In this document: one piece after another, positions 46,991 to 64,000 of the stretch | Position numbering within the stretch: the stretch's first letter is position 1 | Layout: the number at the start of each line of letters is the position of its first letter | From: Bacteroidales bacterium | GTDB taxonomy: Bacteria > Bacteroidota > Bacteroidia > Bacteroidales > F082 | Direction of reading: 5' to 3' | Length of the DNA: 64,000 nucleotides | Assembly: GCA_024400305.1 (NCBI GenBank) | Contig: JAKSMX010000005.1 | Coordinates: 57,616-121,615, forward strand | Program-made: the position numbers and the translations under genes | The notes under the pieces: model-generated | Told to the model about the DNA's origin: nothing | What the model saw: the letters and a program-made list of their open reading frames with translations, nothing else | Database searches by the model: none

Positions 46991-47018
46991 GAGACGGGGT
47001 ACATTGCGACTCCGTCTC
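46991..47018 (+). terminator. Terminator of secDF
   Basis: Stem gagacgg/ccgtctc (46991-46997, 47012-47018) followed by ttttttatt, 24 nt after the stop. Confidence 0.85.
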
Positions 47019-47095
47019 TTTTTTATTCTCCTCTCCTCTCTTAACTTTCCTCTCACGTCTCCAATCTTTTTTATGATTTATATCAAAAAAAAATG

Positions 47096-47103
47096 TAATT
47101 TTG
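47096..47103 (+). promoter_or_regulatory. -7 element of the PorE-like gene
   Basis: TAATTTTG matches TAnnTTTG and lies 38 nt before the ATG at 47142. No clear -33 motif. Confidence 0.5.
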
Positions 47104-47141
47104 CAAGATTATTTTCGTTAGACTCAACAAAAGGAAAATTT

Positions 47142-49604: not shown

Positions 49605-49642
49605 TTAGGTATTTAGAAGTTTGAGGTAATCAGGTATTCAAG

Positions 49643-49676
49643 CACCTCAAACACCTAAACACCTCAAACACCTAAA
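49643..49676. repeat. Tandem 17-bp repeat before purM
   Basis: cacctcaaacacctaaa occurs twice in tandem (49643-49659, 49660-49676). An inverted copy of its core, gtttgaggt, lies at 49619-49627, so alternative hairpins are possible just upstream of the purM start. Confidence 0.7.
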
Positions 49677-49684
49677 CATCTGAC

Positions 49685-50848
49685 ATGATAGAAAAACGTT
49701 ATAGCCTTCGTGGTGTCTCGGCGGAGAAAGAAGACATCCACAATGCAATAAAAAATCTCGATAAAGGGTTGTATCCCAATGCTTTCTGCAAAATCATCCC
49801 CGACATACTCGGCGGCGATGATGAATATTGCAACATCATGCATGCCGACGGTGCCGGAACGAAGTCGTCGCTCGCATATCTTTATTGGAAAGAAACCGGT
49901 GACCTCTCGGTATGGGCAGGCATCGCACAGGACGCCGTCGTCATGAACACCGACGACTTGATGTGCATCGGCGCCACCGACAAGATGCTGCTTTCCTCGA
50001 CCATAGGGCGCAACAAGAACCTCATCCCCGGCGAGGTCATCTCCGCCGTCATCAACGGGACCGAGGAGTTCCTCGCAAAACTGCGTTCACTTGGAGTCGG
50101 CATTTATCTCACCGGCGGCGAGACCGCTGATGTGGGCGACTTGGTGAGAACCATCATCGTTGACAGCACCGTCACCACGAGGATGAAACGCTCCGAAGTC
50201 ATTGAGAACCATATCACTCCCGGCGATGTCATCGTCGGTTTCGCATCATACGGACAGGCCACATACGAAGACAGATACAACGGAGGCATGGGCAGCAACG
50301 GACTGACATCAGCGCGTCACGACGTGCTCGGACATTATCTCGCCGAGAAATACACCGAGAGCTACGACCATTCGATCCCGGAAGACCTGATTTATTCCGG
50401 CAACCACACGCTCACGGAAGCCACATCGGTTGAAGGTGTCGATGTCGGGAAACTCATCCTCGCCCCCACCCGCACCTACCTGCCGATGATGGTTCCGATT
50501 CTCGAAAACCTCCGCGGACACATCAACGGCATCATCCATTGCAGCGGCGGCGCACAGACAAAAGTGACGCATTTCATTGACAATCTTCATATTATCAAAG
50601 ACAACATGATTGAGATACCGCCATTGTTCCAGATGATACAAGAGTCGTCAGGCACCGACTGGCAGGAGATGTACAAGGTCTTCAACATGGGTTCGCGTCT
50701 TGAGATTTACACCGACGAGAGATCAGCGGAAGAGATGATAGAGATTGCCAACTCATTCAACATCAACGCACAGATAATAGGACACGTCGAGGCGTCCGAC
50801 AGGAAACGCCTCACCATCAAGAGTAAACACGGAATATTTGAATACTAA
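49685..50848 (+). CDS. purM: Phosphoribosylformylglycinamidine cyclo-ligase (AIR synthase)
   Basis: The 387-residue protein has the PurM features DGAGTKSSLAYLYWKETGD, MNTDDLMCIGA, LTGGETADVGDLV and the C-terminal NMGSRLEIYTDE. It makes aminoimidazole ribonucleotide in purine synthesis. It is longer than the about 345 residues of Escherichia coli PurM and of the Bacteroidetes form. Its stop overlaps the prfA start by one base. Confidence 0.9.
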   Translation: MIEKRYSLRGVSAEKEDIHNAIKNLDKGLYPNAFCKIIPDILGGDDEYCNIMHADGAGTKSSLAYLYWKETGDLSVWAGIAQDAVVMNTDDLMCIGATDKMLLSSTIGRNKNLIPGEVISAVINGTEEFLAKLRSLGVGIYLTGGETADVGDLVRTIIVDSTVTTRMKRSEVIENHITPGDVIVGFASYGQATYEDRYNGGMGSNGLTSARHDVLGHYLAEKYTESYDHSIPEDLIYSGNHTLTEATSVEGVDVGKLILAPTRTYLPMMVPILENLRGHINGIIHCSGGAQTKVTHFIDNLHIIKDNMIEIPPLFQMIQESSGTDWQEMYKVFNMGSRLEIYTDERSAEEMIEIANSFNINAQIIGHVEASDRKRLTIKSKHGIFEY

Positions 50849-51927
50849 TGGAAATAATTGACAAGTTAGAAGAGATAAAAGAACGTTGGGAGGCCTTGCG
50901 CGAGCAGCTCAACGACCCTAATTTGATGAACGACATGAAACGTTACGTCAAGGTCAACAAAGATTACAAAGACCTTGAGCCTGTGGTGGATGCGTTCAAC
51001 CAATACAAGAACTACCTCGCGAACATCGACGAGGCGAAAGACATTCTGAAGACAGAGAAAGACGAGGACATGCGCGAGATGGCGCAGGAGGAACTCGACA
51101 AGGCCACCGAGAAGTCGGCGAAGCTCGAAGAAGACATCCGCCTGATGCTCATCCCCCAAGACCCGACCGACGGCAAGAACGCCGTGATGGAGATCCGTGC
51201 CGGCACAGGCGGCGACGAGGCTGCCATCTTTGCCGGCGACCTCTACAGGATGTATATCAAGTTCTGCGAGACGAGAAACTGGAAGGTCGAGACCGTCGAT
51301 GCCAACGAAGGCACTGCCGGAGGCTTCAAGGAAATAGTGTTCAACGTCATCGGCGACGGCGCATACGGAATCCTGAAATTCGAGTCGGGAGTACACCGCG
51401 TGCAGCGCGTGCCGAAGACCGAGACACAAGGACGCATCCACACATCAGCCGCATCAGTGGTCGTGCTTCCAGAAGCCGAAGAGTTCGATGTCGAACTGCT
51501 CGACAAAGACATCAAGAAAGAGGTGTATTGTGCCGCGTCAGGTCCTGGCGGGCAATGCGTCAACACCACATACAGCGCAGTCCGTCTCACCCACATTCCG
51601 ACAGGCGTGGTGGTGAGCTGCATCGACGAGCGTTCACAGGCCAAGAACATGGCCAAGGCCATGAAAATCCTCAGAACACGCATCTACGAGCAGGAATACA
51701 ACAAGTATATGGAAGAGGTATGCTCGAAACGCAAGACCATGGTCTCAACCGGCGACCGCTCGGCGAAGATACGCACGTACAACTATCCGCAGGGGCGCGT
51801 CACCGACCACCGCATCGGCTTCACTGTCTATAACCTCACCTCCGTCATGGACGGCGACCTGACATCATTCATCGAGAACCTCCAGATGGCCGAAAACGCC
51901 GAGAGGTTGAAGGAGAGCATGGAATAG
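50848..51927 (+). CDS. prfA: Peptide chain release factor 1
   Basis: The 359-residue protein has the PCRF domain (GTGGDEAAIFAGDLYRMY), the GGQ peptidyl-hydrolysis motif in SGPGGQCVNTTYSAVRLTH and DERSQAKNMAKAMKILRTR. Its length and lack of a programmed frameshift identify it as RF1, which reads UAA and UAG, rather than RF2. Translationally coupled to purM (TAATG). Confidence 0.96.
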   Translation: MEIIDKLEEIKERWEALREQLNDPNLMNDMKRYVKVNKDYKDLEPVVDAFNQYKNYLANIDEAKDILKTEKDEDMREMAQEELDKATEKSAKLEEDIRLMLIPQDPTDGKNAVMEIRAGTGGDEAAIFAGDLYRMYIKFCETRNWKVETVDANEGTAGGFKEIVFNVIGDGAYGILKFESGVHRVQRVPKTETQGRIHTSAASVVVLPEAEEFDVELLDKDIKKEVYCAASGPGGQCVNTTYSAVRLTHIPTGVVVSCIDERSQAKNMAKAMKILRTRIYEQEYNKYMEEVCSKRKTMVSTGDRSAKIRTYNYPQGRVTDHRIGFTVYNLTSVMDGDLTSFIENLQMAENAERLKESME

Positions 51928-51940
51928 AGATTAAAAAAGA

Positions 51941-52033
51941 GAACCGCATAGCGGTTCCACATCCGTAGCACATGGATTTTACATGTGGAAATGAATAGTA
52001 ACAATGAACCGCATAGCGGTTCCATATCCGTAA
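51941..52033. repeat. Two further copies of the palindromic intergenic repeat (CGCATAGCG type)
   Basis: gaaccgcatagcggttcca followed by (c/t)atccgta occurs at 51941-51967 and 52006-52032. The stem is aaccgc/gcggtt, against aatcgc/gcgatt at 43670: both stem strands changed together. A small hairpin cacatg/catgtg lies between the copies. Confidence 0.8.
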
Positions 52034-52037
52034 CAAC

Positions 52038-52847
52038 ATGAATAAACAGCAAATCATAAATCAAATCCACGCCAAGAGATCGTTCCTTTGCGTCGGTCTC
52101 GACACAGACATCAAGAAAATACCGCAACATCTTCTCAATGAGGAAGACCCTGTCTTCGCCTTCAACAAGGCCATCATCGACGCTACAGCTAAATACGCCA
52201 TCGCCTTCAAGCCGAACACGGCATTTTACGAGGTGTATGGCGCGAGAGGCTGGGCAAGTCTCGAAAAGACAATCAATTACATCAAGACGAATTACCCGGA
52301 GATGTTCGTCATCGCCGACGCAAAACGCGGCGACATCGGCAACACATCCGCCAACTACGCACGCGCTTTCTTCGAGACATTGAAAGCCGACGCCATCACA
52401 GTGGCTCCTTACATGGGCGTCGATTCCGTCGAGCCGTTCCTCGGCTTCAACGACAAATGGGTGATTCTTCTTGCCCTGACATCAAACAAAGGCTCGAAGG
52501 ATTTCCAATACCTCAACATCAAAGGCAAGGAATTATATAAGAATGTCTTGGCGAAGTCGGCTGAATGGGCTGGCAGCGACAAGATGATGTACGTTGTCGG
52601 TGCGACACATCCAGAGGAACTCGGCGAGATTCGCAAGTTGTTGCCGGAGCATTTCCTTCTCGTCCCTGGTGTCGGGGCGCAAGGCGGCGACCTTCAGGCT
52701 GTCGCGAAGTTCGGCCTCAACAAAGACTGCGGCCTCATCGTCAACTCGTCACGCGGCATAATTTACGCCTCCAACAGCGAGGACTTCGCCGAAAGAGCCG
52801 CCGAAGAAGCAAGGAAACTGCAGGAACAGATGGCTGCCGTTTTGTAG
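52038..52847 (+). CDS. pyrF: Orotidine 5'-phosphate decarboxylase
   Basis: The 269-residue enzyme makes UMP. It shows [24 protein letters not shown] and the catalytic [11 protein letters not shown], followed by VAPYMGVDS and [10 protein letters not shown]. It is the longer type 2 family found in Bacteroidetes. The start lies just after a palindromic repeat. Confidence 0.96.
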
Positions 52848-52876
52848 TAAAAAGTTATAAAGTATAAAGTTAAAAG

Positions 52877-52909
52877 AGCGCAAAGCGGACAAGATGTTTG
52901 CTTTGCGCT
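52877..52909 (+). terminator. Terminator of pyrF
   Basis: A 10-bp stem agcgcaaagc/gctttgcgct (52877-52886, 52900-52909) followed by six T residues. Confidence 0.88.
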
Positions 52910-52952
52910 TTTTTCGTGTGTAAATGTTTTGAAAGTATTCGATCTATAAATC

Positions 52953-52978
52953 AAATATTTAAGCCTTTTCCGCCTCAA
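52953..52978 (-). pseudogene. Remnant of the 5' end of a sigma-factor gene
   Basis: On the minus strand TTG 52978 starts MRRKRLKYL..., whose first eight residues are those of the sigma factor at 61157 (MRRKRLKYF). The DNA shares a 19-bp identical stretch (aaatatttaagccttttcc). It lies 78 nt after the first TPR gene, the place the sigma gene has behind the second TPR gene. The homology stops at once, so only a few codons remain. Confidence 0.6.
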
Positions 52979-53056
52979 CTAACAAGTAGTTTTTTAACAC
53001 AAGTTTCACAAGCATTATCACAAGTCACACAAGTTTTCACCCAATCACCTAACAAC

Positions 53057-55051
53057 CTATTCACCTAACCTCCCCTTCCCTTCATACTTCTTCGCCATCC
53101 GCTTCTTCCCTATCTTCTTGTAAAAATTCGCGACATGGGCACATGTCGTTTTGTATGTTCCACGATATATCTCATTGTTTTCATCATAAAAAGTCTTTGC
53201 GATATTATATGCTTTCAGAGTATATTGTTCACCTTTTTCCGTGTCACCGAGGGCGAAACAGGCCTTTCCCATGCGGACGTAACAGTTAATGAGATGAAAT
53301 TTGTAAATTCTCAACCTGTCGGCCGATTTCTCATAGATTTCCATGCCTTTGTTGTAATGTTCGAAAGCCCCGGTGTAATCTTTCCTGCTGAAGAACACAT
53401 CGCCGTACGTCTCGTTCGCCGAAGCGTAAATCTCCTCATAACATCCGTTGTCGCCGCCGTATTTCACGCACAAATCCAGAAGTTTCTCGTATGTCGCGGA
53501 AGCCTCATCATCCTCTCTGAGAAACACCTCCGCCTTTGCGAGCCGGTAAAGCGCATACAGATACACATCCAATTCGTAATTGACGAACTCGTGTGCATCC
53601 ATGACCTTGAGCGCATCAACAAACGCGGTTTTGGCTTCCTGATAATTCTTAAGTTCCATGTAGATGTTGCCTTTTTTCGTTTTGAAATCCGCGATTCTCG
53701 GGGCATATTTCTTCGGATCCTGCGGCATGATGCGTGTTTCTATCTCGATGGCCTTGTCGATACATGCCATGGCGGAGTCGTTTTTCCCTTGGTCAGACAG
53801 GATGATGCTCAGGCTCGACAGCGAGTTGGCGTATTCACCGCTGAATTTATCATCAGCCTCATAAAGTTTCCTCCTTATCTCGACAGATTTTTTTACGACT
53901 TTCTCCGCCTTCTCATACTCACAATTCTCATAATACATGGTGCCGAGTTCATGAATCGGATAGTTTATAAGCACATAGAAATACGAGTCGCTCACCTCGT
54001 TGCCGAGTCCGTCTTCGGCTGATTTTATCGCCTTTTCAAAAAAACTGCGGGCTCTGTCAAGATCCTTGATGCGGATGACCATACGACCCATATTCAAATA
54101 TATGTATGACATGTGAATCTTTGAACTGCAATTTCTTTCGGCGATCATCCCGTACTTCATCACTTTTTCGATATTGACCTCATCGGAGAAGAACCTGACC
54201 GTCTGTGCGAGAACATAGTTGTTGGTCGAGTCGGCTTCTACTATTTTTTCGTACATCTGTCCAATGATTCGTCTGTTTTCCGGTCCGCCCACGACAGTCC
54301 TGATGTTGATTTCGTCAAGCATCCCTGGAATCAGTGCTTTTATTGAAGCGTTGACCTCATTTCTCTGCAAAATCTTATTTGATAGTCGTTCAAAAGAATT
54401 GTAGTTCACATACACATTCAATGCGCCTTCGATGTCGCCGTTGTCAAGGGCGGCGAAAGCGCGGCGGCCCACCGAGTCCATGTCGTCTTTGTTAATCCTC
54501 GAGAACTTGTCGGCATATTCCGCAATCTTCGAATTGGCGTTTTTCAGGTCTTCTTCAGCTTTCACGGCTCTTTGCTCGTATTCCGCAAGCGGAATCTCGT
54601 TTTTTGCGAGCTGCGACTTCAACTCCTCAATCTGTTTCTTGTAAACGCCCACCTGATAGTTGTCGAATATCTCGTAATAGCTGGCGCGCGCCTCCGCAAG
54701 TTTCGCAGGCGGCGCTACGACAATCTTCAATGTGTCTTTTTCGGTCAGGACGATGCCATCCCTAATCAGTTGGTTGTTCACCACTTCGTAGCCCGACTTG
54801 TAAACACGGAGGTTATACACCACGTCGCCTTTCTTCTTCTTGGCGAAATTCAGGATGAAGACCCCGTCATTGCCGCTGACGGCTGGCTGCACGTCATCCG
54901 ACGAGACGGCCTCGATGCTCGCGCCGGAGACAGTCTTGCCATTTGAATTAATCTCAACTACCACGCCGACCTGCCGCACCTGGGCAGACAGGGTGCAAAC
55001 ATTTAACAGACAAACTGTTACAAGAATAATTTTAAGATATTTTGCTGTCAT
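53057..55051 (-). CDS. Secreted coiled-coil/TPR protein, module copy 1
   Basis: The 664-residue product begins with a signal peptide (MTAKYLKIILVTVCLLNVCTLSAQ). Residues about 25-105 form a carboxypeptidase regulatory-like domain (GVVVEINSNGKTVSGASIEAV). A charged coiled coil follows at about 115-180, then at least eight TPR-like helical repeats to the end. ATG 55051 is preferred to 55066 because the promoter (-7 at 55081) would start RNA near 55067. The N-terminal 90 residues are identical to those of the paralogue at 61192-63201 while the repeats have diverged. Function unknown; a periplasmic or surface sensing scaffold is one possibility. Confidence 0.85.
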   Translation of the reverse strand: MTAKYLKIILVTVCLLNVCTLSAQVRQVGVVVEINSNGKTVSGASIEAVSSDDVQPAVSGNDGVFILNFAKKKKGDVVYNLRVYKSGYEVVNNQLIRDGIVLTEKDTLKIVVAPPAKLAEARASYYEIFDNYQVGVYKKQIEELKSQLAKNEIPLAEYEQRAVKAEEDLKNANSKIAEYADKFSRINKDDMDSVGRRAFAALDNGDIEGALNVYVNYNSFERLSNKILQRNEVNASIKALIPGMLDEINIRTVVGGPENRRIIGQMYEKIVEADSTNNYVLAQTVRFFSDEVNIEKVMKYGMIAERNCSSKIHMSYIYLNMGRMVIRIKDLDRARSFFEKAIKSAEDGLGNEVSDSYFYVLINYPIHELGTMYYENCEYEKAEKVVKKSVEIRRKLYEADDKFSGEYANSLSSLSIILSDQGKNDSAMACIDKAIEIETRIMPQDPKKYAPRIADFKTKKGNIYMELKNYQEAKTAFVDALKVMDAHEFVNYELDVYLYALYRLAKAEVFLREDDEASATYEKLLDLCVKYGGDNGCYEEIYASANETYGDVFFSRKDYTGAFEHYNKGMEIYEKSADRLRIYKFHLINCYVRMGKACFALGDTEKGEQYTLKAYNIAKTFYDENNEIYRGTYKTTCAHVANFYKKIGKKRMAKKYEGKGRLGE
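54786..55045 (-). repeat. 260-bp block identical to 62936-63195
   Basis: Every base of 54786-55045 matches 62936-63195 (offset 8150). Just outside, in the direction of the gene interior, similarity drops sharply. It encodes the signal peptide and regulatory-like domain of both TPR proteins. Confidence 0.9.
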
Positions 55052-55073
55052 AAAACAAATAAACAATGAGCTG

Positions 55074-55081
55074 CAAAATTA
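55074..55081 (-). promoter_or_regulatory. -7 element of TPR gene copy 1
   Basis: TAATTTTG on the minus strand, 23 nt before the ATG at 55051. The corresponding element of copy 2 is at 63224-63231. Confidence 0.6.
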
Positions 55082-55154
55082 ATAATTTTTCCGAATCAGG
55101 GAAAAAACTTTTCAGACAACGATCGTATGAATTTTTTTCATCGCAGCATGCACA

Positions 55155-55403
55155 TCAAGTCACACAATTATCCTGCTCACCTGATTTGCTTTTTTCATTC
55201 AGCAGTGCCGAATATTCCGCAAAAAAGTCATAATCAAGCAATTGCGATATTTTTAACAACAAGTCGGTATCGATATATTTCCTATGGAAAATCTTATAGA
55301 CGTTGTCGCGACAAAATCCCAACTTGTCAGAAAACCACTTGACACAGTGCCCCTGCTCGTCAAGTTTCTCACGTATTTTCTCACCAATGTGAATCTCTTC
55401 CAT
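55155..55403 (-). CDS. Small XRE-type (helix-turn-helix) regulator, module copy 1
   Basis: The 82-residue protein starts MEEIHIGEKIREKLDEQGHCVKWFSDKLG and continues FCRDNVYKIFHRKYIDTDLLLKISQLLDYDFF, a compact five-helix Cro/C1-type DNA-binding fold without a second domain. It is about 84% identical to the protein at 63306-63554. The frame could extend to 55451, but that part differs mainly at non-silent positions between the copies, so ATG 55403 is used. It lies 103 nt upstream of the TPR start and probably controls that gene. Confidence 0.85.
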   Translation of the reverse strand: MEEIHIGEKIREKLDEQGHCVKWFSDKLGFCRDNVYKIFHRKYIDTDLLLKISQLLDYDFFAEYSALLNEKSKSGEQDNCVT

Positions 55404-55755
55404 ATAAAAGTGTTTTAACAATAGAGGGAGTGAGACTTCGAAATCTGACAAAATTTTTCAAAAATTTTTCAAATCATTGTTAATTTCAACATTGGAATGA
55501 CATTTCAGAGGGGGAGGGAACTTTTCAAGTGGTTTGGAATTGATAAGTTAGAAAAGAATTAGGTACAATATCCGATGTTCAGGATAGATTTCGCACAAGA
55601 AGGCGGTTTCAAGGATTCTGAAGGTTTGAAGAAGATAACTCCATCATATTTAGATGTGTGGAAGGAGTTTTAGACGTTTGAAAAAAAATTTCAAAAAACA
55701 GCTCCAAGTCACAAAAGATTTATATCTTTGCAGCCGGTATCAAAGACAAAAAGTT
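55404..55755. other. Intergenic region of 352 bp between XRE and Rpn genes
   Basis: It contains an imperfect palindrome near the XRE start (agacttcgaaatct, 55433-55446), AT-rich sequence, a 32-codon plus-strand open frame (55575-55673, MFRIDFAQEGGFKDSEGLKK, ending VWKEF) that may be the tail of a lost gene, and the Rpn promoter. Confidence 0.5.
55723..55730 (+). promoter_or_regulatory. -7 element of the Rpn-family gene
   Basis: TATCTTTG followed by CAGCCG, 25 nt before the ATG. The same TATCTTTGCAGCCG precedes the AAA-ATPase gene at 63771. Confidence 0.6.
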
Positions 55756-56628
55756 ATGACTACATTATTCGACTACAGTGGAACACGTTACATCAATCCG
55801 CTTACAGACTTTGGTTTCAAGAGAATCTTCGGTGACAAGGAAGTGATGAAGGCGTTTCTCACCGACCTGCTCCAGCCAAGTTCTCCGATAAAGGATCTAA
55901 TTTTCCTTGACAAAGAGTTAGGTCCTGACAATGAGACATTTAGAGGTGTCATATACGACCTGCGCTGCATGACCGAAGACGGAGGCGAATTTATCGTTGA
56001 GATGCAAAACCGCGGACAGGAACATTTCAGCGAGAGAATCCTTTATTATCTGTCACGTTCGTTTTCAAACCAGAAAGGACATAGTGACAAGGATTGGGAC
56101 TATAGCCTGAAACCGATTTACGGCGTTTTTTTCCTGAATTTTCACATGAAAGGGTTCAAACCTCGTTACTTGAGGACAATTCAGATGACCGTCAGCGAGA
56201 CAGGCGAGTTGTTTTCTGACAAACTAAAGGCTTTTACATTAGAGATTCCCGATTTCAAAGACAAGTCAGAAGATTACCCAAAGACAATGATTGAATACTG
56301 GCTGTACATCTTGGCTAACATGCAGAATTTCAAGGGGCAATTGCCTTTCACACAAAAACAGCCTGTATTCAAGAAGGTGGGCATGATTTCAGAAATAGCT
56401 CACCTGACCCCCGATGACCTACGGTCATACGACAAGAACATGGACACCATCCGCACGAACAACGAGGTCATGAGTTTTGCCAAAAATGAAGGCAGGAGTG
56501 AAGGTATAAAAGAAGGTATAAAAGAGGGAATCCATAAGGTCGCCGCAAGCATGAAAAAAATGGGACTACCGATGTCGCAAATCACACAGGCGACCGGACT
56601 GTCAGAAGATGAAATTGCCGCATTGTAA
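55756..56628 (+). CDS. Rpn-family PD-(D/E)XK nuclease / putative transposase
   Basis: The 290-residue protein begins MTTLFDYSGTRYINPLTDFGFKRIFGDKEVMKAFLTDLL, the hallmark of the Rpn (recombination-promoting nuclease, PDDEXK_2) family. The catalytic pattern is visible as D/E residues in IYDLRCMTEDGGEFIVEMQNRGQ (D...ExQ). The C-terminus has the repeated GIKEGIKEGI hinge and a short helix typical of the family. Related proteins cleave DNA and promote RecA-independent recombination; many act as selfish or toxin-like genes. Start 55756 is used instead of 55654. Confidence 0.88.
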   Translation: MTTLFDYSGTRYINPLTDFGFKRIFGDKEVMKAFLTDLLQPSSPIKDLIFLDKELGPDNETFRGVIYDLRCMTEDGGEFIVEMQNRGQEHFSERILYYLSRSFSNQKGHSDKDWDYSLKPIYGVFFLNFHMKGFKPRYLRTIQMTVSETGELFSDKLKAFTLEIPDFKDKSEDYPKTMIEYWLYILANMQNFKGQLPFTQKQPVFKKVGMISEIAHLTPDDLRSYDKNMDTIRTNNEVMSFAKNEGRSEGIKEGIKEGIHKVAASMKKMGLPMSQITQATGLSEDEIAAL

Positions 56629-56670
56629 TCACAAAGTTCTTTCACCTCCTCTCGTATGGACAAACAAAAA

Positions 56671-56698
56671 GGCTGACGCATCACAAGGAGCGCCAGCC
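56671..56698. terminator. Bidirectional terminator between Rpn and Omp28-like genes
   Basis: ggctgacgc/gcgccagcc (56671-56679, 56690-56698) pairs except for one central mismatch and stands between convergent genes. Confidence 0.7.
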
Positions 56699-56727
56699 TC
56701 TCTAATCTCTTATCTATAATCTCTAAA

Positions 56728-58488
56728 CTATCTTGCGATAGTGACTTTCTGCGTCTTCACAGCACCGTCGTTGGCAACGACCTTGACGAAATAAACGCCA
56801 TTGTCGAACGAAGCGACGTTTACAACTGTTTTGACAGAACCTTCGACGTTGGCGACCATCTGACCGAGAGAGTTGTAAATTTCAACCGCCTTGATGTTTT
56901 CACCTTCAACGAAGATTGTGTTGTTAGCCGGGTTAGGATAGACTTTCATGCCGTCCAGTCCGTTCTCGCCGATCAAATCCTGACCTTTGTTAATCCTGAT
57001 GAGTTCTGAACCATGTGCGCCGAAACCGCCGTTGTCCTGATCCTGACCGAGGATATACACATCATTGACTTTGATCTTGTACCAGCCTTCACCGTATGTG
57101 CAGCAGATACCGTTGTCGTTGCTGTCGTAGATGTTGAACAGGTAATCAGCACCTGTAGGGACATCTTCGATTGTCTCGACATGAAGCTGTGTTGAACCCG
57201 ATGCGATGAGGTGTGCGTACGGGCCGCCTTCCGCGATGACTTCACCGAGTGAGTTGACGACATCCCATGTGGTCTGTTCGCCGAACTGGTCCTGATTGAT
57301 GTAAATCTTCATTGTTGTTGTTGCACCATCAACCGGCTCCGTCTCCGTCCATTCATCGCAGACTGCTGTGAAATTCACCTCGTAAGGATAATCCTGACCG
57401 TTGGCCTTCACGATTGTGAGCTTGCCGGCGTGCGTTCCGAATGGAATCTCCATGTCAAAAGAGACATCTTCCTTCTGTCTCGGTTCGAGCACACCGTTCC
57501 ATTCATACTCTTCGACAGCGTTGCCGACTTCGACTTTATACTGGATTGATGTGAGGTTTTCTGTTCCGCCGTTCTGCAAGCCGAAATCGAATGTCTTGAC
57601 CTGGCTGCAGACCGCCACGGCACGCTGGCTGACGCTCTTAATGACAGGATAGATAGGCTCGTTTGAACCCTCCGATTTCTCAAGCATGTTGGCCGAAAGG
57701 ATATTGCGTGCAGGGGTGTTCGTCGTTCTTGCGCAGACGAAAGCGAGGAAGTGGACGTTTTCAATATCAACTTCGACACCATTCGGTGAGCCGATCATCT
57801 CAGGAATAGCGTATGTATATTCCTTTGTGATGAGTGTGCCAGCTGTCGTAGGGGTGATCGGGTCGCCCCATGCGCTCTCGCCGATCACGTCGCGGAGGAT
57901 ATGCATGTGGCAGTACTGACCGCCGACCCACTGCGACGGGTTTGAAGAGCCACCGCTCTGTGAACCCCAGATGCTGTCCTGAAGCATATAGACAGTGAGA
58001 TAGTTCGTTGACTCTGTGCTGTTTCCGGTGTAATAGACCTCAACTGTGATGCTGGCTTCGCGCGTCTCCGGGTCAATGACGACCTGTCCGCCGACGTTAA
58101 GCTCTGAAGCCTGTGCCAGATGCTGTGAAGTGAGGCCGTTCCATGCGCTGCGGCTCTGGCCGGATGATGTCGAACGGTTGACGACACCCGTCGGATAACC
58201 ACTGATGGAGAATCCGCCGTGGATGGTGTTGCCGTCCGTAGTGTTGAAGTTCGGATAACTTGTCGGAGCATAGCCACCAGCGTGAATGTTGACCGCCCAT
58301 ACCCTGTCAGGATTATTGGCGCAAATCTGGTTTGCAATAAGGTGTCCGTCAGGGCAATAGCCGCAGTTACGGCCCGTGAACTCTTCAATGACGACGTTCC
58401 TGTTTGCAGGCTCCGTCGATACGAACATCTGTGCGCTTGCCATGAAGCCGGCTACAAGTCCTAATACGAGAAATGTAAATTTTTTCAT
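56728..58488 (-). CDS. Omp28-like thioredoxin-fold protein with type IX secretion sorting tail
   Basis: The 586-residue protein has a signal peptide (MKKFTFLVLGLVAGFMASAQ). The Omp28-like thioredoxin-fold domain follows (residues about 25-230) with EEFTGRNCGYCPDGH, a CGYC redox motif. The middle is beta-rich. The last 75 residues (MKVYPNPANNTIFVEGENIKAVEIYNSLGQMV..., GVYFVKVVANDGAVKTQKVTIAR) form a type A T9SS sorting domain. It is shorter than, and only distantly similar to, the protein at 37418. Likely a surface or outer-membrane-associated protein of unknown role. Confidence 0.9.
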   Translation of the reverse strand: MKKFTFLVLGLVAGFMASAQMFVSTEPANRNVVIEEFTGRNCGYCPDGHLIANQICANNPDRVWAVNIHAGGYAPTSYPNFNTTDGNTIHGGFSISGYPTGVVNRSTSSGQSRSAWNGLTSQHLAQASELNVGGQVVIDPETREASITVEVYYTGNSTESTNYLTVYMLQDSIWGSQSGGSSNPSQWVGGQYCHMHILRDVIGESAWGDPITPTTAGTLITKEYTYAIPEMIGSPNGVEVDIENVHFLAFVCARTTNTPARNILSANMLEKSEGSNEPIYPVIKSVSQRAVAVCSQVKTFDFGLQNGGTENLTSIQYKVEVGNAVEEYEWNGVLEPRQKEDVSFDMEIPFGTHAGKLTIVKANGQDYPYEVNFTAVCDEWTETEPVDGATTTMKIYINQDQFGEQTTWDVVNSLGEVIAEGGPYAHLIASGSTQLHVETIEDVPTGADYLFNIYDSNDNGICCTYGEGWYKIKVNDVYILGQDQDNGGFGAHGSELIRINKGQDLIGENGLDGMKVYPNPANNTIFVEGENIKAVEIYNSLGQMVANVEGSVKTVVNVASFDNGVYFVKVVANDGAVKTQKVTIAR

Positions 58489-58594
58489 TTTTTCTTTGAT
58501 TATTTGTTAATGATTATGACTTTTTGAGATTTTCTCATTTATCAGAAGAAAGAGAAGACCGTTTTTTCGCTCTCCTCTTTCCACTTTCCACTTA

Positions 58595-59626
58595 CTAAAG
58601 TTCAACTTCTGTGTTCCAGCCGAACTCGTCTTTCTCTGCGCCTGTCTGGATGCCGCGGAGCTTGTTGTAAAGCTTCTGGCTCCACGGACCCGGCTTGCCG
58701 TCACCGAACTGGTATGACTTGCCTGTGTCAGGGTCATCAATGCGTGAGATAGGGCTGATGACTGCTGCCGTTCCGCATGCGCCGGCTTCCTCGAATGTGG
58801 CGAGTTCCTCTTCAGCGATTGGACGGCGTTCGACCTTCATGCCGAGGCTTTCTGCGAGCTGCATCAGGCTCTTGTTGGTGATTGAAGGAAGAATTGATGT
58901 TGATTTCGGAGTGATGTATGTATTGTCTTTGATGGCGAAGAAGTTGGCTGCGCCGGCTTCGTCGATGTATTTCTTTTCCTTCGCGTCGAGATAGAACTCG
59001 CATGCGTACTGACCGCCGTGGCAGGCTTCCATGTGGGCGCGCAATGATGCCGCGTAGTTGCCGCCGACCTTGTAGATACCTGTTCCGAGAGGTGCCGAAC
59101 GGTCGTACTTGCGTGTGATGACGTATGGGTTTGCCATGAAACCGCCCTTGAAGTACGGGCCCACAGGTGTGGCGAACACGACGAACAGATATTCATCAGC
59201 CGGTTTCACGCCGACGCGGGCGCCTGTGCCGATGAGCAACGGACGGAGGTACAACGAAGCGCCGCTCTCGTATGTCGGGACGAACTCCTTGTTGACCTGG
59301 ACGCACTTGATCATGGCTTCTTTGAATTTCTCCATCGGGAAACGTGGCATGCAGATGCCGTCGCATGATGTCTCGAGACGTTTTGCATTCTCTTCCATGC
59401 GGAAAATGCGGACCTTGCCGTCAACGCCGCGGTGAGCCTTCAAGCCCTCGAAAGCCTCCTGACCATAGTGCAGGCATGTGGCAGCCATGTGGATGTTGAT
59501 TGTCTCTTCAGAGCAGATTTCAAGTTCGCCCCACTCACCATTACGGTAATAGCAGCGGACGTTGTAGTTGGTTTTCAAATAACCGAACGGGAGTGAACCC
59601 CAGTCAATGTCTTTAGTGTTTTGCAT
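58595..59626 (-). CDS. ilvE: Branched-chain amino acid aminotransferase
   Basis: The 343-residue enzyme is fold-type IV PLP aminotransferase. It shows CLHYGQEAFEGLKAHRG, GTGIYKVGGNYAASLRAHMEA (catalytic Lys in this region: KVGGNYA), EKKYIDEAGAANFFAI and ILPSITNKSLMQLA. It interconverts Leu, Ile and Val and their 2-oxo acids. ATG 59626 (MQNTKDIDWGSLPFG) matches the family start; 59674 would add an unrelated segment. A Bacteroidetes -7 box is 46 nt upstream. Confidence 0.96.
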   Translation of the reverse strand: MQNTKDIDWGSLPFGYLKTNYNVRCYYRNGEWGELEICSEETINIHMAATCLHYGQEAFEGLKAHRGVDGKVRIFRMEENAKRLETSCDGICMPRFPMEKFKEAMIKCVQVNKEFVPTYESGASLYLRPLLIGTGARVGVKPADEYLFVVFATPVGPYFKGGFMANPYVITRKYDRSAPLGTGIYKVGGNYAASLRAHMEACHGGQYACEFYLDAKEKKYIDEAGAANFFAIKDNTYITPKSTSILPSITNKSLMQLAESLGMKVERRPIAEEELATFEEAGACGTAAVISPISRIDDPDTGKSYQFGDGKPGPWSQKLYNKLRGIQTGAEKDEFGWNTEVEL

Positions 59627-59671
59627 GATATTTTTATTTTTTGAGTTGATAAATTCATTTTTTTCAAATTG

Positions 59672-59679
59672 CAAAGATA
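59672..59679 (-). promoter_or_regulatory. -7 element of ilvE
   Basis: On the minus strand TATCTTTG. Leader of about 40 nt. Confidence 0.6.
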
Positions 59680-59740
59680 CAATTTTTTTTATAATGAACC
59701 AGATACTTCAAAATATTTTAAATATCTCGAAAACCGCAAT

Positions 59741-60580
59741 TTATTTTTCACATCTCAACACGACATTCCATCCGCAAGTGTTTGACGGACGATATGTTCC
59801 GGTCCAAAGCTCGAAGCCGTCCTTATAAATATTCATCCTTTGGCTCTCCATCTGCTTCGCCATCGGTATGTCAATACGGAAGCTGCCAGTTTCGTCAGTC
59901 TGCGCCTTGATGTCCTGCACGATTACAGTCGCCCCGGCCACGGGGGTTCCCTGTTCGTCGATGACGTTGCCGAAGATGACGCCGAGGCTGTTGTCGCGGC
60001 GCAACGGCAGCGTCAGTGATTTCCTTATCTCCAGCGTCGTGTCAACGGTCTGATAGCCAGACGATTCGAGAACGATGTGCATCATCTTGTACTTGTCGCC
60101 GAAAGAAATGTTTTCTATCAGGACAGTCATGTCTTCCCTGCTCACCGGCACCCTGACAGGTTCATTTCCGTTGATACTATATGTGACATTGCCTTTTTCA
60201 AACGGAAGCGACGGGATGGCAAATCCGGGGTCTTCCGTCACATTCACCTTGACATCCAATGGCTTGAAGACATTCCAGCAGATGACGAAAACGAGCGACG
60301 CCGTCGCGAACAGCGCACTCAGGTAAGCCAGCCGTCTCTTGCGTTTCGCCTTGCCGTCGATGATGCCGTCCATGACGAGGCGGCGGACAACGATGTCGTA
60401 TGCCATTTCAGAGAACCGCTCCGCCGCAATCTTCTGGAACGCTATCGCGCGGCTCGCCTCGACAGCCTCCTCCAATGCCTTTTCATTTGACGCGAAATAT
60501 GTCTTGACGAGGCCTTTTTCATCCTCGTCGGCCATTCCGTCAAGATAGCGGGCAAGCAGCTCTTCCGGTAACTTATCCAT
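59741..60580 (-). CDS. Membrane protein with regulatory-like domain, probable anti-sigma factor
   Basis: The 279-residue protein has a cytoplasmic N-terminus of about 90 residues (LPEELLARYLDGMADEDEKGLVKTYFAS, like the start of many anti-sigma factors), one membrane segment (YLSALFATASLVFVICWNVF) and an outer part with a PEGA-like region (about 140-195) and a carboxypeptidase regulatory-like domain (about 200-275, GVIFGNVIDEQGTPVAGATVIVQD). ATG 60580 overlaps the stop of the sigma gene (ATGGATAA). Its place and topology suggest it holds the sigma factor inactive. Unlike FecR-type anti-sigma factors it lacks a FecR domain. Confidence 0.75.
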   Translation of the reverse strand: MDKLPEELLARYLDGMADEDEKGLVKTYFASNEKALEEAVEASRAIAFQKIAAERFSEMAYDIVVRRLVMDGIIDGKAKRKRRLAYLSALFATASLVFVICWNVFKPLDVKVNVTEDPGFAIPSLPFEKGNVTYSINGNEPVRVPVSREDMTVLIENISFGDKYKMMHIVLESSGYQTVDTTLEIRKSLTLPLRRDNSLGVIFGNVIDEQGTPVAGATVIVQDIKAQTDETGSFRIDIPMAKQMESQRMNIYKDGFELWTGTYRPSNTCGWNVVLRCEK

Positions 60581-61157
60581 TCTTTCTGACATATCTTCCG
60601 TCAATTAATTTCTTCAACTCAACCTTCGCCCTCTTCGAAATAGTATAGACATTTTCGATGCTGACTCCCATGGATCTCGCGATTTCGTCAGATTTCATGC
60701 CTTTCCATTCCGACAAAAGGACGTATTTAAATCTCGCGTTTTCGATACTGTTGATTGCGTCGAGAAGCTCAAAACGCAGCAGATGCGCATTGCCATCCTC
60801 AAACTCAACAATATTCTCGTCAAGCAAAACCGCCTTGTCGTCAGTCGTGGCGACACTTTTCTTCTTCTCATCAAAAAATCTCACCAAGACAGTTGACAGC
60901 CAAGTATCAAGACTTGACAAGAAATTGAACTTCCTCAATTTCTCCCAGCCATTTCTGTGCAAAAATAAATAAAATTCAGTTATCAGTTCCTCTTTTTTGA
61001 CATTAGACGAGAACGTGCGCCTGATGATGAATGAGAAAAGCTTGTCGCAGCGGTAAAACAGAAGGTACTCGATGGCGTCTTCGTCATTGTTCATGACAGC
61101 CTCAAGCAATTCCCTGTCGGACAGCGACCTGAAATATTTAAGCCTTTTCCTTCTCAC
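60573..61157 (-). CDS. RNA polymerase sigma factor, ECF type
   Basis: The 194-residue protein has a sigma region 2-like part (ELLEAVMNNDEDAIEYLLFYRCDKLFSFIIRR) and a C-terminal region 4 (LLSEWKGMKSDEIARSMGVSIENVYTISKRAKVELKKLID) with a helix-turn-helix. Start is GTG 61157, 34 nt after the TPR gene; an internal start is unlikely because the MRRKRLKY start is conserved in a remnant at 52978. It forms an operon with the TPR gene upstream and the membrane protein downstream. Region 2 is divergent, so the assignment rests mainly on region 4 and context. Confidence 0.8.
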   Translation of the reverse strand: MRRKRLKYFRSLSDRELLEAVMNNDEDAIEYLLFYRCDKLFSFIIRRTFSSNVKKEELITEFYLFLHRNGWEKLRKFNFLSSLDTWLSTVLVRFFDEKKKSVATTDDKAVLLDENIVEFEDGNAHLLRFELLDAINSIENARFKYVLLSEWKGMKSDEIARSMGVSIENVYTISKRAKVELKKLIDGRYVRKNG

Positions 61158-61191
61158 CTTTCAGCTCTGCAACTTTATTTCAACACACGTC

Positions 61192-63201
61192 TCAACTTTC
61201 AGTTCTCAGCCTTTTGACTTTCTCGCCTATCATCTCGTACTTCTTCGCCGTCCTTTTCTTTCCTATCCTCCTATAGAACTTCGACATTTCGACGCACACC
61301 TTCTCAAAGAGCTCGTGATGTCCGTCGTGGTCTTCATCGTACAGTTCCTTCGCCTTCGCGTAGGCGTTGAGGTAGGCGTTCTCCGCTTTTTCCTTGTCAT
61401 TCATCGCGAGATATGTCATGCCGATGCAAGCGTAGCAATTCGGCAGGTCCTTCCTCAGCTTCATCACCTTCCCGCACGATTTCTCCATTATGTCCTTAGC
61501 CGTCTCAAAATGGATTATCGACGATTCATAGTCTTTTTTTCTGTAGAGCACGTTGCCGTAAAGCACTTCGGCGAGTTCAAGGTCCACGTCGAGCACACCT
61601 TTGTCGTTGTTGTCGGTGTAGAATCTGACCACGCGTTCGCACACCACCGCCGCCTCGTCGTATTCTTTAAGGAGCCACTCGGCTTTGGCGAATTGCCTAT
61701 TGGCATACATATACAGCCTGTATTCGCCTTTGGGCAGATCGGTGTCCTCATAGATAGACAATGCTTCGGCATAGACTTCCTTCGCCATGGCGAAATCATC
61801 CATCTCCATGCAGATATTGCCCTTCAGCGTGTGGAAATGGGCGAACAGCGTCGCGAACTCCTTCGGGTCGTTCTGGTACGTGCGTCTCAAGACCGTTATC
61901 GCCTCATCGATGGCCGCCATCGCCTCGTCGTACTTCAGCTGGTCGCACAGGATCACGGAGAGTGCCGAGAGCGAGTTGGCGTATTCGTCGTCGTAGGCGG
62001 AGTCGATCTCCGAGAGACGTCTCCTGACCTCGATGGCCTTTCTGAATGTCTGCTCCGCATCCTTGTATTCGCAGGCGTTATAGTACATCATGCCGAGCGC
62101 GTGCAAAGGGTAGTTAATCTTGTGCAGGTAGAACTTCTCGTCCATGCCTTTCTTCTTTTCGGCGTCGATGATAGCCATCGACTTCTCAAAATACAGCCTG
62201 CTCTTGTCAAAATCCTTGGCTTCCATATAAGCTCTGCCGAGATACATGAAGATGGAGACCAGGGCGAACTGGTGGTCGCTGTTCCGTTCGGCCATCCTGC
62301 CGTAGCTGATGACCTTGTCGATGTCGATCTCTTCGTCGAAGAACCTCACCGCGTCGTGGATGTAAATGGCGTTTGTCGTGTCCGACTCGACGATCTTATC
62401 GTACATCTGTCCGACGATCCGCCGGTTCTCCTTGCCGCCGACGAGCATACGCAGCTCTATCTCCTCATACATCCCGGGAATCAGCTCACTGATGGAGGCG
62501 TTGGCCTCGTTGCGCTGGTCGATCTTGAGCGACAGTCGTTCGAGGGAGTTGAAGTCGGAATAGACCTTCAACGCGCCTTCGATGTCGCCGTTGTCGAGAG
62601 CGTCGAATGCGTGACGGCTCACCGAGTCCATGTCGTCTTTGTTAATCCTCGAGAACCTGTCGGCATAGTCCGCGATTTTCGAGTTGGCGTTTTTCAGGTC
62701 ATTCTCCGCTACCCTGACACGCTCCTCGTATTCGGAGAGTGTTATCTCCTTGCCCGCGAGCTGCGCCTTCAGGCTCTCGACCTGTCTCTTATAGACGCCG
62801 ACCTGGTAGTTGTCGAAGATCTCGTAGTAGTTCGCGCGCGCCTCGGCAAGTTTCGCAGGCGGCGCAAGCACAATCTTCAGCGTGTCGCGATCGGTGAGAA
62901 CCACTCCGTCATTGATCTGTCTGGTGTTCACCACCTCGTAGCCCGACTTGTAAACACGGAGGTTATACACCACGTCGCCTTTCTTCTTCTTGGCGAAATT
63001 CAGGATGAAGACCCCGTCATTGCCGCTGACGGCTGGCTGCACGTCATCCGACGAGACGGCCTCGATGCTCGCGCCGGAGACAGTCTTGCCATTTGAATTA
63101 ATCTCAACTACCACGCCGACCTGCCGCACCTGGGCAGACAGGGTGCAAACATTTAACAGACAAACTGTTACAAGAATAATTTTAAGATATTTTGCAGTCA
63201 T
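61192..63201 (-). CDS. Secreted coiled-coil/TPR protein, module copy 2
   Basis: The 669-residue paralogue of the protein at 53057-55051 has the same signal peptide and regulatory-like domain (first 90 residues identical), a coiled coil (YKRQVESLKAQLAGKEITLSEYEERVRVAENDLKN) and about eight TPR-like repeats that have diverged (for example GMMYYNACEYKDAEQTFRKAIEVRRRL). ATG 63201 is chosen for the same reason as in copy 1. It is the first gene of an operon with the sigma factor and its probable anti-sigma factor, so it may supply the outside signal to that pair. Confidence 0.85.
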   Translation of the reverse strand: MTAKYLKIILVTVCLLNVCTLSAQVRQVGVVVEINSNGKTVSGASIEAVSSDDVQPAVSGNDGVFILNFAKKKKGDVVYNLRVYKSGYEVVNTRQINDGVVLTDRDTLKIVLAPPAKLAEARANYYEIFDNYQVGVYKRQVESLKAQLAGKEITLSEYEERVRVAENDLKNANSKIADYADRFSRINKDDMDSVSRHAFDALDNGDIEGALKVYSDFNSLERLSLKIDQRNEANASISELIPGMYEEIELRMLVGGKENRRIVGQMYDKIVESDTTNAIYIHDAVRFFDEEIDIDKVISYGRMAERNSDHQFALVSIFMYLGRAYMEAKDFDKSRLYFEKSMAIIDAEKKKGMDEKFYLHKINYPLHALGMMYYNACEYKDAEQTFRKAIEVRRRLSEIDSAYDDEYANSLSALSVILCDQLKYDEAMAAIDEAITVLRRTYQNDPKEFATLFAHFHTLKGNICMEMDDFAMAKEVYAEALSIYEDTDLPKGEYRLYMYANRQFAKAEWLLKEYDEAAVVCERVVRFYTDNNDKGVLDVDLELAEVLYGNVLYRKKDYESSIIHFETAKDIMEKSCGKVMKLRKDLPNCYACIGMTYLAMNDKEKAENAYLNAYAKAKELYDEDHDGHHELFEKVCVEMSKFYRRIGKKRTAKKYEMIGEKVKRLRTES
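62936..63195 (-). repeat. 260-bp block identical to 54786-55045
   Basis: Perfect match to the block in TPR copy 1, with sharply lower similarity on the inner side. Confidence 0.9.
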
Positions 63202-63223
63202 AAAACAATTAAACAATGACTTG

Positions 63224-63231
63224 CAAAATTA
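63224..63231 (-). promoter_or_regulatory. -7 element of TPR gene copy 2
   Basis: TAATTTTG on the minus strand, 23 nt before the ATG at 63201, as in copy 1. Confidence 0.6.
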
Positions 63232-63305
63232 ATATTTTTTCCAAATCAAGAAAAAAAATTTTTTCAGACAACGATCGTATGAATTTTTCCATCGCAGCAT
63301 GCACA

Positions 63306-63554
63306 TCAGGTCACACGATTATCCTGCCCGCCAGATTTATTTTTCTTATTCAGCAGCGCCGAATATTCCGCAAAGAAATCATAATCAAGCAACATCGATA
63401 TTTTCAACAGCAAACCAGTGTCGATGTACTTCCTTTGGAATATCTTATAGACGTTGTCGCGGCAACACCCTAACTTGCCAGAAAACCACTTGATGCAGCA
63501 CCCCCGCTCATCAAGTTTCTCGCGTATTTTCTCACCGATATGAAGTTCTTCCAT
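63306..63554 (-). CDS. Small XRE-type (helix-turn-helix) regulator, module copy 2
   Basis: The 82-residue protein MEELHIGEKIREKLDERGCC... has 69 of 82 residues identical to the copy at 55155-55403. Changes lie in the first helix turn, the recognition-helix region (GCCRDNVYKIFQRK against GFCRDNVYKIFHRK) and the C-terminus. It has no other domain. It lies 105 nt upstream of TPR copy 2 and is the probable regulator of that gene. Confidence 0.85.
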   Translation of the reverse strand: MEELHIGEKIREKLDERGCCIKWFSGKLGCCRDNVYKIFQRKYIDTGLLLKISMLLDYDFFAEYSALLNKKNKSGGQDNRVT

Positions 63555-63770
63555 ATAAAAACGTTTTATCAATAGAGGGTGTGAGACTTCAAAATCTGAC
63601 AATTTTTTTAAAAATTTTTCAAACCGTTTCAAATTTCGCAAAATCGTCGCACGAATTTCATAAAACGAGCATCTGTAACCGCAGCCCGCCCATCCGCGAA
63701 GCGATTCACATTGCGCAGCATCACATTAAAAAAATCCTCGCTGAAGCATCGCTGTCTGCCGTACTTTTGT

Positions 63771-63778
63771 TATCTTTG
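63771..63778 (+). promoter_or_regulatory. -7 element of the AAA-ATPase gene
   Basis: TATCTTTG followed by CAGCCG, 22 nt before the ATG at 63801. Confidence 0.6.
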
Positions 63779-63800
63779 CAGCCGAAAAAACATCACAGTT

Positions 63801-64000
63801 ATGAAGTACCCCATCGGAACCCAGACGTTCAGCACCATCATCGAAAACGGGATGGTATATGTCGATAAGACCGCCCTTGTTTACGACCTCGCGCAGAAAC
63901 ATATTTGTTTCCTGTGCCGTCCGCGCAGGTTCGGAAAATCATTGTTAATATCAACGCTTGAAAGCTATTTCAAAGGCGAGAAGGAGCTTTTCAAAGGATT
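63801..64000 (+). CDS. AAA-ATPase-like / PD-(D/E)XK nuclease (DUF1703) protein, N-terminus (partial)
   Basis: The 66 codons in the window begin [24 protein letters not shown] and contain [24 protein letters not shown]. This is the typical start of the AAA_ATPase-like family whose C-terminal part carries a PD-(D/E)XK nuclease-like domain (DUF1703). The Walker A is the family form RPRRFGKS. The rest of the gene lies beyond the right edge. The role of these abundant Bacteroidales proteins is not known; a link to mobile DNA or conflict systems is likely. Confidence 0.85.

Follow-up and report, generated by a model that had tools for sequence, protein, structure and literature searches.

An ECF-type sigma/anti-sigma pair of Bacteroidales and its exported CRD-TPR neighbour with an exchangeable body: a candidate envelope-to-sigma relay

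Introduction

The locus described here raises the question of which genes around an ECF-type sigma factor belong together, and in particular whether an exported repeat protein, or the small regulator gene standing in front of it, takes part in the same system. By the window we mean the whole stretch of 64,000 nucleotides analysed, which belongs to a genome of 2.86 Mb that is 98.8% complete; all loci considered come from metagenome assemblies. The original prediction saw in this stretch a duplicated module of an XRE regulator and a TPR protein, one copy of which had been wired to a sigma/anti-sigma pair.

The locus and its gene products

Six genes lie in two minus-strand blocks 8.15 kb apart, and both predicted units of an XRE gene and an exported CRD-coiled-coil-TPR protein consist of real genes. 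The order in copy 2 is XRE2 (63306..63554, a small HTH-like regulator of 82 aa from its ATG, in an open frame extending to 63641), TPR2 (61192..63216, likely ATG start at 63201, body class B, as defined below), the ECF-type sigma gene (60573..61157, 194 aa) and the membrane anti-sigma gene (59741..60604, 287 aa); 34 bp separate TPR2 from the sigma gene, which the anti-sigma gene overlaps by 32 bp. Copy 1 comprises XRE1 (55155..55403, open frame extending to 55451) and TPR1 (53057..55066, likely ATG start at 55051, body class A) without a full sigma gene, and only copy 2, as had been claimed, runs on into genes for an ECF-type sigma factor and a one-pass anti-sigma. No third copy occurs in the window's genome at E <= 0.001. 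Just before TPR2 a minus-strand TAnnTTTGC box (63223..63231; copy-1 equivalent 55073-55081), kept in all six aligned TPR upstream regions, presumably resembles the Bacteroidota -7 promoter box. Rfam gave nothing at gathering scores across 49000-64000, sigma was in no plasmid record and TPR2 in no phage record.

The sigma product matches the profiles of 6in7, 6jbq and 1or7 over nearly its full length (E 2e-6 to 5e-6) and NCBIfam sigma70-ECF at E 9e-9, which is below that model's cut-off, while Pfam detects region 4 only; judged by its sequence, it has the Sigma-70 regions 2 and 4 and the similarity to ECF factors by which an ECF sigma is recognised. The anti-sigma consists of a cytosolic helical domain, a TM helix at about residues 85-113 and two outer beta domains, of which the last is a CRD, and on this layout, together with its position adjoining sigma, it is predicted to be a one-pass anti-sigma; Pfam finds no anti-sigma domain in it. 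Its outer two-domain region is strongly conserved, and it keeps a linker that aligns with the C39-bearing form described below. The head of TPR2 and the outer CRD of the anti-sigma align with an hhalign probability of 77 and can be assigned to one superfamily, a weak piece of evidence in itself, CRDs occurring widely in the envelopes of Bacteroidota. The TPR part has the peptide-bound TPR domain of LGN among its top structural matches (4wne, TMt 0.83), and the head is modelled by AlphaFold2 with low to middling confidence (block means 51-82). The TPR protein has no T9SS tail by Pfam and no lipobox by inspection, and a PDB sequence search with the head and outer-domain profiles gave nothing credible. 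XRE2, compared with Cro/C1-type HTH families, reaches only E 0.1 (HTH_26, below the gathering score). With PADLOC neither TPR2 and XRE2 nor the sigma and anti-sigma have a match that is credible, a Cas11b assignment of sigma (E 0.0014) being read as chance. The scanned downstream neighbours in the window (aminotransferase-like, Omp28/T9SS-tail and Rpn genes) include no TonB-dependent receptor.

Elsewhere in the window, the gene at 47004-49604 encodes a TPR/PD40/CRD/OmpA protein with the domain make-up of PG1058, which we take to be PorE, and that at 56728-58488 an Omp28-like protein with a T9SS sorting tail; by these products, proteins of the T9SS type are present in the host.

The conserved unit

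A profile built from nine members of the sigma family retrieved 27 loci from the GTDB collection, and their neighbours were scored with phmmer at E <= 0.001. In 24 of these loci sigma has, on its own strand, an anti-sigma gene no more than 500 bp away and a gene for a CRD-head protein no more than 2.5 kb away. Behind the CRD head follows a TPR part in 5 of them, a caspase in 8 (Pfam Peptidase_C14, seen in the one that was checked) and a short tail in 11 (proteins of 316-356 aa). In the remaining three (L068, L069, L071) sigma is paired with a C39-bearing protein; GTPase or SrfB/Virul_Fac genes adjoin L071 and the G014 locus. The caspase-like protein of the related locus L050 matches NCBIfam caspase_w_EACC1 at E 1e-13, below the cut-off.

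A C39 peptidase domain is inserted before the TM helix in 8 of the 24 anti-sigmas; this C39-type cysteine peptidase lies between the cytosolic domain and the helix in L049-L053, L055, L056 and L063.

Within the genus (99 genomes, the window's own included) TPR2 has matches in 16 at E <= 1e-30, sigma in 27 and the anti-sigma in 23 at E <= 1e-12; by our own reading all 25 sigma places at E <= 1e-30 adjoin an anti-sigma match. The full CRD-TPR protein at E <= 1e-30 is confined to 6 of the 99 (the window's genome, G065, G088, G089, G093 and G014), four of which, G065, G088, G089 and G093, share coordinates with the genomes behind L048, L047, L045 and L046. Of 60 relatives sampled first, 21 had a match to TPR2 and 27 one to sigma (E <= 0.001). 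The conserved unit is sigma, anti-sigma and a protein with the same exported CRD head, and the idea that these three belong together, one part of the original prediction, is borne out by the 24 of 27 loci and by the 25 of 25 sigma places beside an anti-sigma.

Replacement of the TPR body

The comparison of TPR bodies took in ten database proteins, both copies in the window and six loci; several of the database proteins are near-copies of loci and not independent (P0005 and L047, for example, lie on contigs of equal length). The bodies form class A (copy 1, L046, P0006, P0007, P0010), class B (copy 2, L048, P0001-P0003), class C (L045, L047, P0004, P0005) and class D (P0008, P0009), with the bodies of L051 and G014 falling outside all of these; two more protein searches for further classes gave distant relatives and fragments only. 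Within a class identity is 87-100% at residues 301-490 and 75-100% at residues 491-674 (68% for the two class-D members), between classes 39-56% and 32-58%; from one locus to another, members of a class agree at 87-99%.

At the syntenic sigma-linked site the classes are C, A, C, B and B in L045, L046, L047, L048 and the window. Between L045 and L046 the sigma DNA is 98% identical and the TPR body protein only 42%; per 100 bp, identity is 49-59% in the body and rises to 97-100% across sigma, the change falling at the sigma start, and dS is 0.06 for sigma, 0.09 for anti-sigma and 0.13 for BCAT (a gene name that, like pyrF and htpG below, comes from our own reading of the sequences), with the body saturated. 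In a tree of sigma, anti-sigma and BCAT, L045 groups with L046, and a grouping of L045 with L047 is rejected (AU p 3e-35); in the body tree the partner of L045 is L047, and its grouping with L046 is rejected (AU p 9e-5). Each tree has five rows, with a long L046 branch in the body tree and L047 and L048 flagged for letter make-up. Rapid evolution of the body in place of replacement was considered and rejected, because synonymous sites between classes are saturated or nearly so while the adjacent sigma gene of L045 and L046 has a dS of 0.06. Class bodies are under purifying selection (W2 against L048, dN 0.07 and dS 0.28). These comparisons demonstrate that the TPR body has been replaced by recombination between loci.

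A triplet test of L045 with L047 and L046 as parents finds no breakpoint inside the gene (5000 of 5000 permutations reach the statistic), and therefore the swap there lies at or beyond the gene's ends. The TPR gene of L047 is itself a mosaic near residue 276-300 (0 of 5000 permutations as extreme), with more than one break, since its first 50 residues are again L045-like (23:2 sites). Over 41 pairs with sigma identity of at least 70%, five of the six near TPR pairs (sigma 87-99%) have tails only 46-57% identical; caspase tails are 68-83% identical in five pairs (sigma 71-74%), short tails 83-97% in the four pairs with sigma at or above 94%, and those of more distant short-tail pairs down to 27%. 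No sharp allele replacement was seen in the caspase and short-tail kinds, the caspase pairs lacking near-identical sigmas. One class C locus and one class A locus have anti-sigmas that are 96% identical, and since the anti-sigma does not co-vary with the body class, only the head could dock on it.

Such exchange could, in principle, have nothing to do with signalling. The TPR gene could be cargo of a hypervariable site that ends by chance at a conserved sigma pair, its product sending no signal to sigma, and the facts that L045 and L046 are unlike over the entire stretch upstream of sigma, that XRE-headed cargo varies among relatives and that copy 1 stands without a sigma gene would all fit; however, a CRD head within 2.5 kb and on the same strand in 24 of 27 loci, surviving the change from a TPR to a caspase tail, and gaps between TPR protein and sigma of just 34 to about 165 bp in the near group speak against chance, and we consider this explanation rather unlikely, if worth keeping in mind. 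Alternatively, the TPR protein could be the target of diversifying selection, as an envelope antigen or the target of a phage or toxin, merely co-expressed by a stress-sensing sigma pair. Discrete allele classes common to several species would agree with this, as would the sigma/anti-sigma pair of Bacteroidales induced by an antibacterial toxin that is reported in the accessible part of PMC9308784; yet a periplasmic protein showing neither T9SS tail nor lipobox would make a poor antigen, and the constant head stays linked to the sigma pair across deep divergence, which makes the explanation improbable.

Origin of copy 1

The XRE genes of the two copies are about 85% identical in DNA, and the TPR proteins share 38% beyond residue 300. 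From residue 301 on, the DNA of TPR1 is 99% identical to the TPR gene of L046, which adjoins sigma, and in front lies a minus-strand tract of 260 bp identical to copy 2 (54786..55045, signal peptide and CRD), read as gene conversion. A triplet test places one breakpoint between 54788 and 54785, as extreme a value arising in 0 of 10000 permutations, the informative sites being 127:8 copy-2-like before 54788 and 24:672 L046-like after it. Behind TPR1 there remains a remnant of about 28 bp of a sigma-gene start (52953..52980, minus strand). The insert as a whole extends approximately over 52914..55677, its edges uncertain by tens of bases, and L113, L045 and L047 lack it between pyrF and the Rpn nuclease gene. 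Given the mosaic and the sigma remnant, the best account of copy 1 is that of a cassette derived from a sigma-linked unit, with the resident head in front. Class A stands beside a full sigma gene in one assembly (L046), an arrangement supported by the sigma-start remnant behind TPR1; the TPR match in that genome (G061) is reported with one TGA, which is placed outside the TPR frame, since the 664-aa frame there is open.

The insertion site has features of its own. A gene for an Rpn-family recombination-promoting nuclease (55654-56628) directly adjoins it and is also present in relatives without the insert. A dispersed intergenic repeat with a unit of about AAAAACTCGTGCAACTTGTGTTAAA, often in two copies, occurs at 52990-53037 and at loci L137-L156, and one copy sits at the empty copy-1 site of L045. 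A pattern search found no match to the repeat in the window, and it is described from the matches of a 117-bp query, of which the window's genome has 27 and four relatives have 15-40; by our reading an ATG comes within about 15 bp behind at least 7 of the 20 copies fetched.

The XRE gene and its neighbourhoods

The XRE gene behaves differently from the rest. None is found at the four nearest syntenic loci (tblastn best E 1.7, with 2.1-5.9 kb upstream of TPR covered), and the orthologues of these relatives, at 70-78% identity, stand elsewhere at the head of other genes, contrary to the notion of an XRE-TPR module as a unit. In two of the four, a full CXXX-repeat peptide cassette (a 233-aa precursor with a Tat-like start, a TIGR04115 radical SAM enzyme, TIGR04119 and TIGR04116) separates TPR from the orthologue, which lies 6.4 kb upstream. 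In another it lies on another contig, heading a surface-type protein that reads like an LRR surface protein; in the remaining one, also on another contig and with an internal stop, it precedes a gene set with a caspase relative. Two other families in that set we label LPP20 and DUF271 on our own account, the LPP20-labelled protein having no NCBIfam match. A gene of 387-399 aa, the same in every case, and an htpG-like gene lie near each of the four orthologues.

Six matches to this XRE occur in the window's genome, two of them at the TPR genes. Others stand before surface-type genes (L079), before a CXXX-repeat peptide operon (L080) and near a sigma-like/M48 fusion (L078), and the sixth, on contig C1, is more distant (30%, E 5e-7). 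In L078 (2899-12564) the M48 peptidase fusion near the XRE has a start resembling sigma region 2 (below cut-off) and is followed by GTPase-like and DUF4407 genes. An XRE lies within 8 kb in 5 of the 27 sigma loci, all caspase-type and with the XRE downstream, a count limited by contig ends; in G014 two such XREs are divergent from the CRD-TPR-sigma unit.

Because its orthologues head differing cargo at the same site, the XRE marks a variable site, and it is mostly a chance neighbour of the TPR-sigma unit here. The genes had been predicted not to occur independently of each other in most genomes, which holds for CRD protein and sigma and fails for the XRE; for the XRE with TPR, G014 gives partial support. 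An ancestral XRE-TPR module was accordingly rejected, the orthologues of near relatives heading other genes. That the XRE controls a two-gene XRE-TPR module, one copy being wired to the sigma pair, is most improbable, for all that it directly precedes TPR in both window copies and that two XREs are divergent from the CRD-TPR gene in G014, since four of four nearest relatives lack an XRE directly at TPR, with orthologues heading other cargo, and copy 1 with its sigma remnant derives from the sigma-linked unit rather than being its ancestor.

A proposed relay from envelope to sigma

Gene order, domain anatomy, the conservation of CRD head, sigma and anti-sigma, and the replacement of the TPR body are observed. 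We propose, with a probability of about one half, that they form a relay from envelope to sigma, in which a constant CRD head docks and an exchangeable TPR arm recognises. The CRD-TPR protein would be exported to the periplasm by its signal peptide, where the constant head and a helix pair would dock on the constant outer two-domain region of the anti-sigma and the TPR superhelix would bind a variable peptide or protein; binding of this ligand could alter the dock such that the anti-sigma releases sigma, which would then transcribe its own operon and envelope genes. Copy 1, an imported class-A body behind the resident head, would be a second receptor for the same anti-sigma or a donor cassette, and the XRE part of the neighbouring variable-cargo site.

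That the exported protein is the input is best supported by the occurrence of one outer region and its CRD-head partners with two cytosolic outputs. L041 and L042 encode TIR-like proteins that match the anti-sigma across the TM helix and outer region (L041, BLASTP 2e-9 over 235 aa); the TIR-like protein is of the ThsB type by PADLOC (E 1e-6), and these proteins adjoin two CRD-head proteins, one of which is TPR-like by homology to TPR2. This shared outer region, the common superfamily of head and outer CRD, and the LGN-like fold of the TPR part favour the relay. The parallel units (L041 3716-8051, L042 9496-13805, L044 1-3516) all read CRD-head, CRD-TPR-like and then TIR-like TM protein.

More speculatively, and with a good deal less confidence, the relay could belong to a wider polymorphic-receptor system with a constant CRD head, a swappable TPR arm existing in few ancient allele classes shared across species, interchangeable outputs (sigma via anti-sigma, TIR, caspase) and extra arms as unlinked cassettes such as copy 1, in which at least class C may read a radical-SAM-modified CXXX-repeat peptide encoded upstream. 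A CXXX-repeat peptide operon is directly upstream in both class-C loci seen. The operon, with its 233-aa Cys-rich precursor, precedes the class-C TPR-sigma-anti-sigma genes in L108 and L109 (the L045 and L047 genomes).

That relatives among some animal-gut bacteria exchange the repeat protein as a cassette suggests signalling through a recognition part that can be replaced. If the TPR arm is the input, the stimulus of an ECF sigma would be changed by swapping one gene segment while sigma and anti-sigma stay constant. This would parallel allele-swapping recognition systems and give genetic access to the signals, for the most part unknown, to which sigma factors of Bacteroidota respond. Coupling of this outer region to TIR would join transcriptional and TIR-based envelope responses.

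Relation to known systems

The composition is rated a variant of ECF/anti-sigma signalling; literature searches of partial coverage found no paper describing it, and the accessible parts of PMC8195603, PMC8999054, PMC13088901 and PMC9308784 contain no exchangeable TPR part with a CRD head next to an anti-sigma of the one-pass type.

PG1058 of the T9SS likewise combines periplasmic TPR and CRD in one protein, but, according to the accessible part of PMC5053529, carries a beta-propeller and an OmpA domain and serves as a T9SS scaffold with no sigma link. The EACC2/caspase systems, described with an ECF sigma and a TPR protein in PMC8195603, and other diversifying conflict systems (PMC7159879), as far as the accessible text goes, share a constant core with a variable part, caspase and TIR outputs, an ECF sigma and a TPR protein; in contrast to the present case, 'carboxypeptidase' and 'periplasmic' never occur in the accessible main text of PMC8195603, nor 'sigma factor' and 'anti-sigma' in the accessible text of PMC7159879. 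ECF54, with CHAT and peptidase context, also has caspase-like neighbours of an ECF sigma, but is described in the accessible part of PMC8999054 as being without an anti-sigma, whereas a membrane anti-sigma is the rule here.

Envelope-sensing sigma pairs of Bacteroidota are represented, in the accessible parts of the two papers, by Dma (PMC13088901) and by the BcpT-induced pair, which responds to an antibacterial toxin (PMC9308784). In the dual membrane-spanning anti-sigmas (Dma) of Bacteroides a single chain extends to the outer membrane (PMC13088901, accessible part), whereas the anti-sigma here, at 287 aa, has no outer-membrane beta-barrel at its C-terminus, ends in a CRD and has a separate exported protein alongside. 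With ECF sigma and one-pass anti-sigma pairs in general the locus shares the ECF-type sigma, the membrane anti-sigma with a cytosolic helical domain and the overlapping genes; it differs in the C39 peptidase domain inserted in 8 of 24 anti-sigmas and in that the neighbouring gene, the putative input, encodes an exported CRD protein with interchangeable tails.
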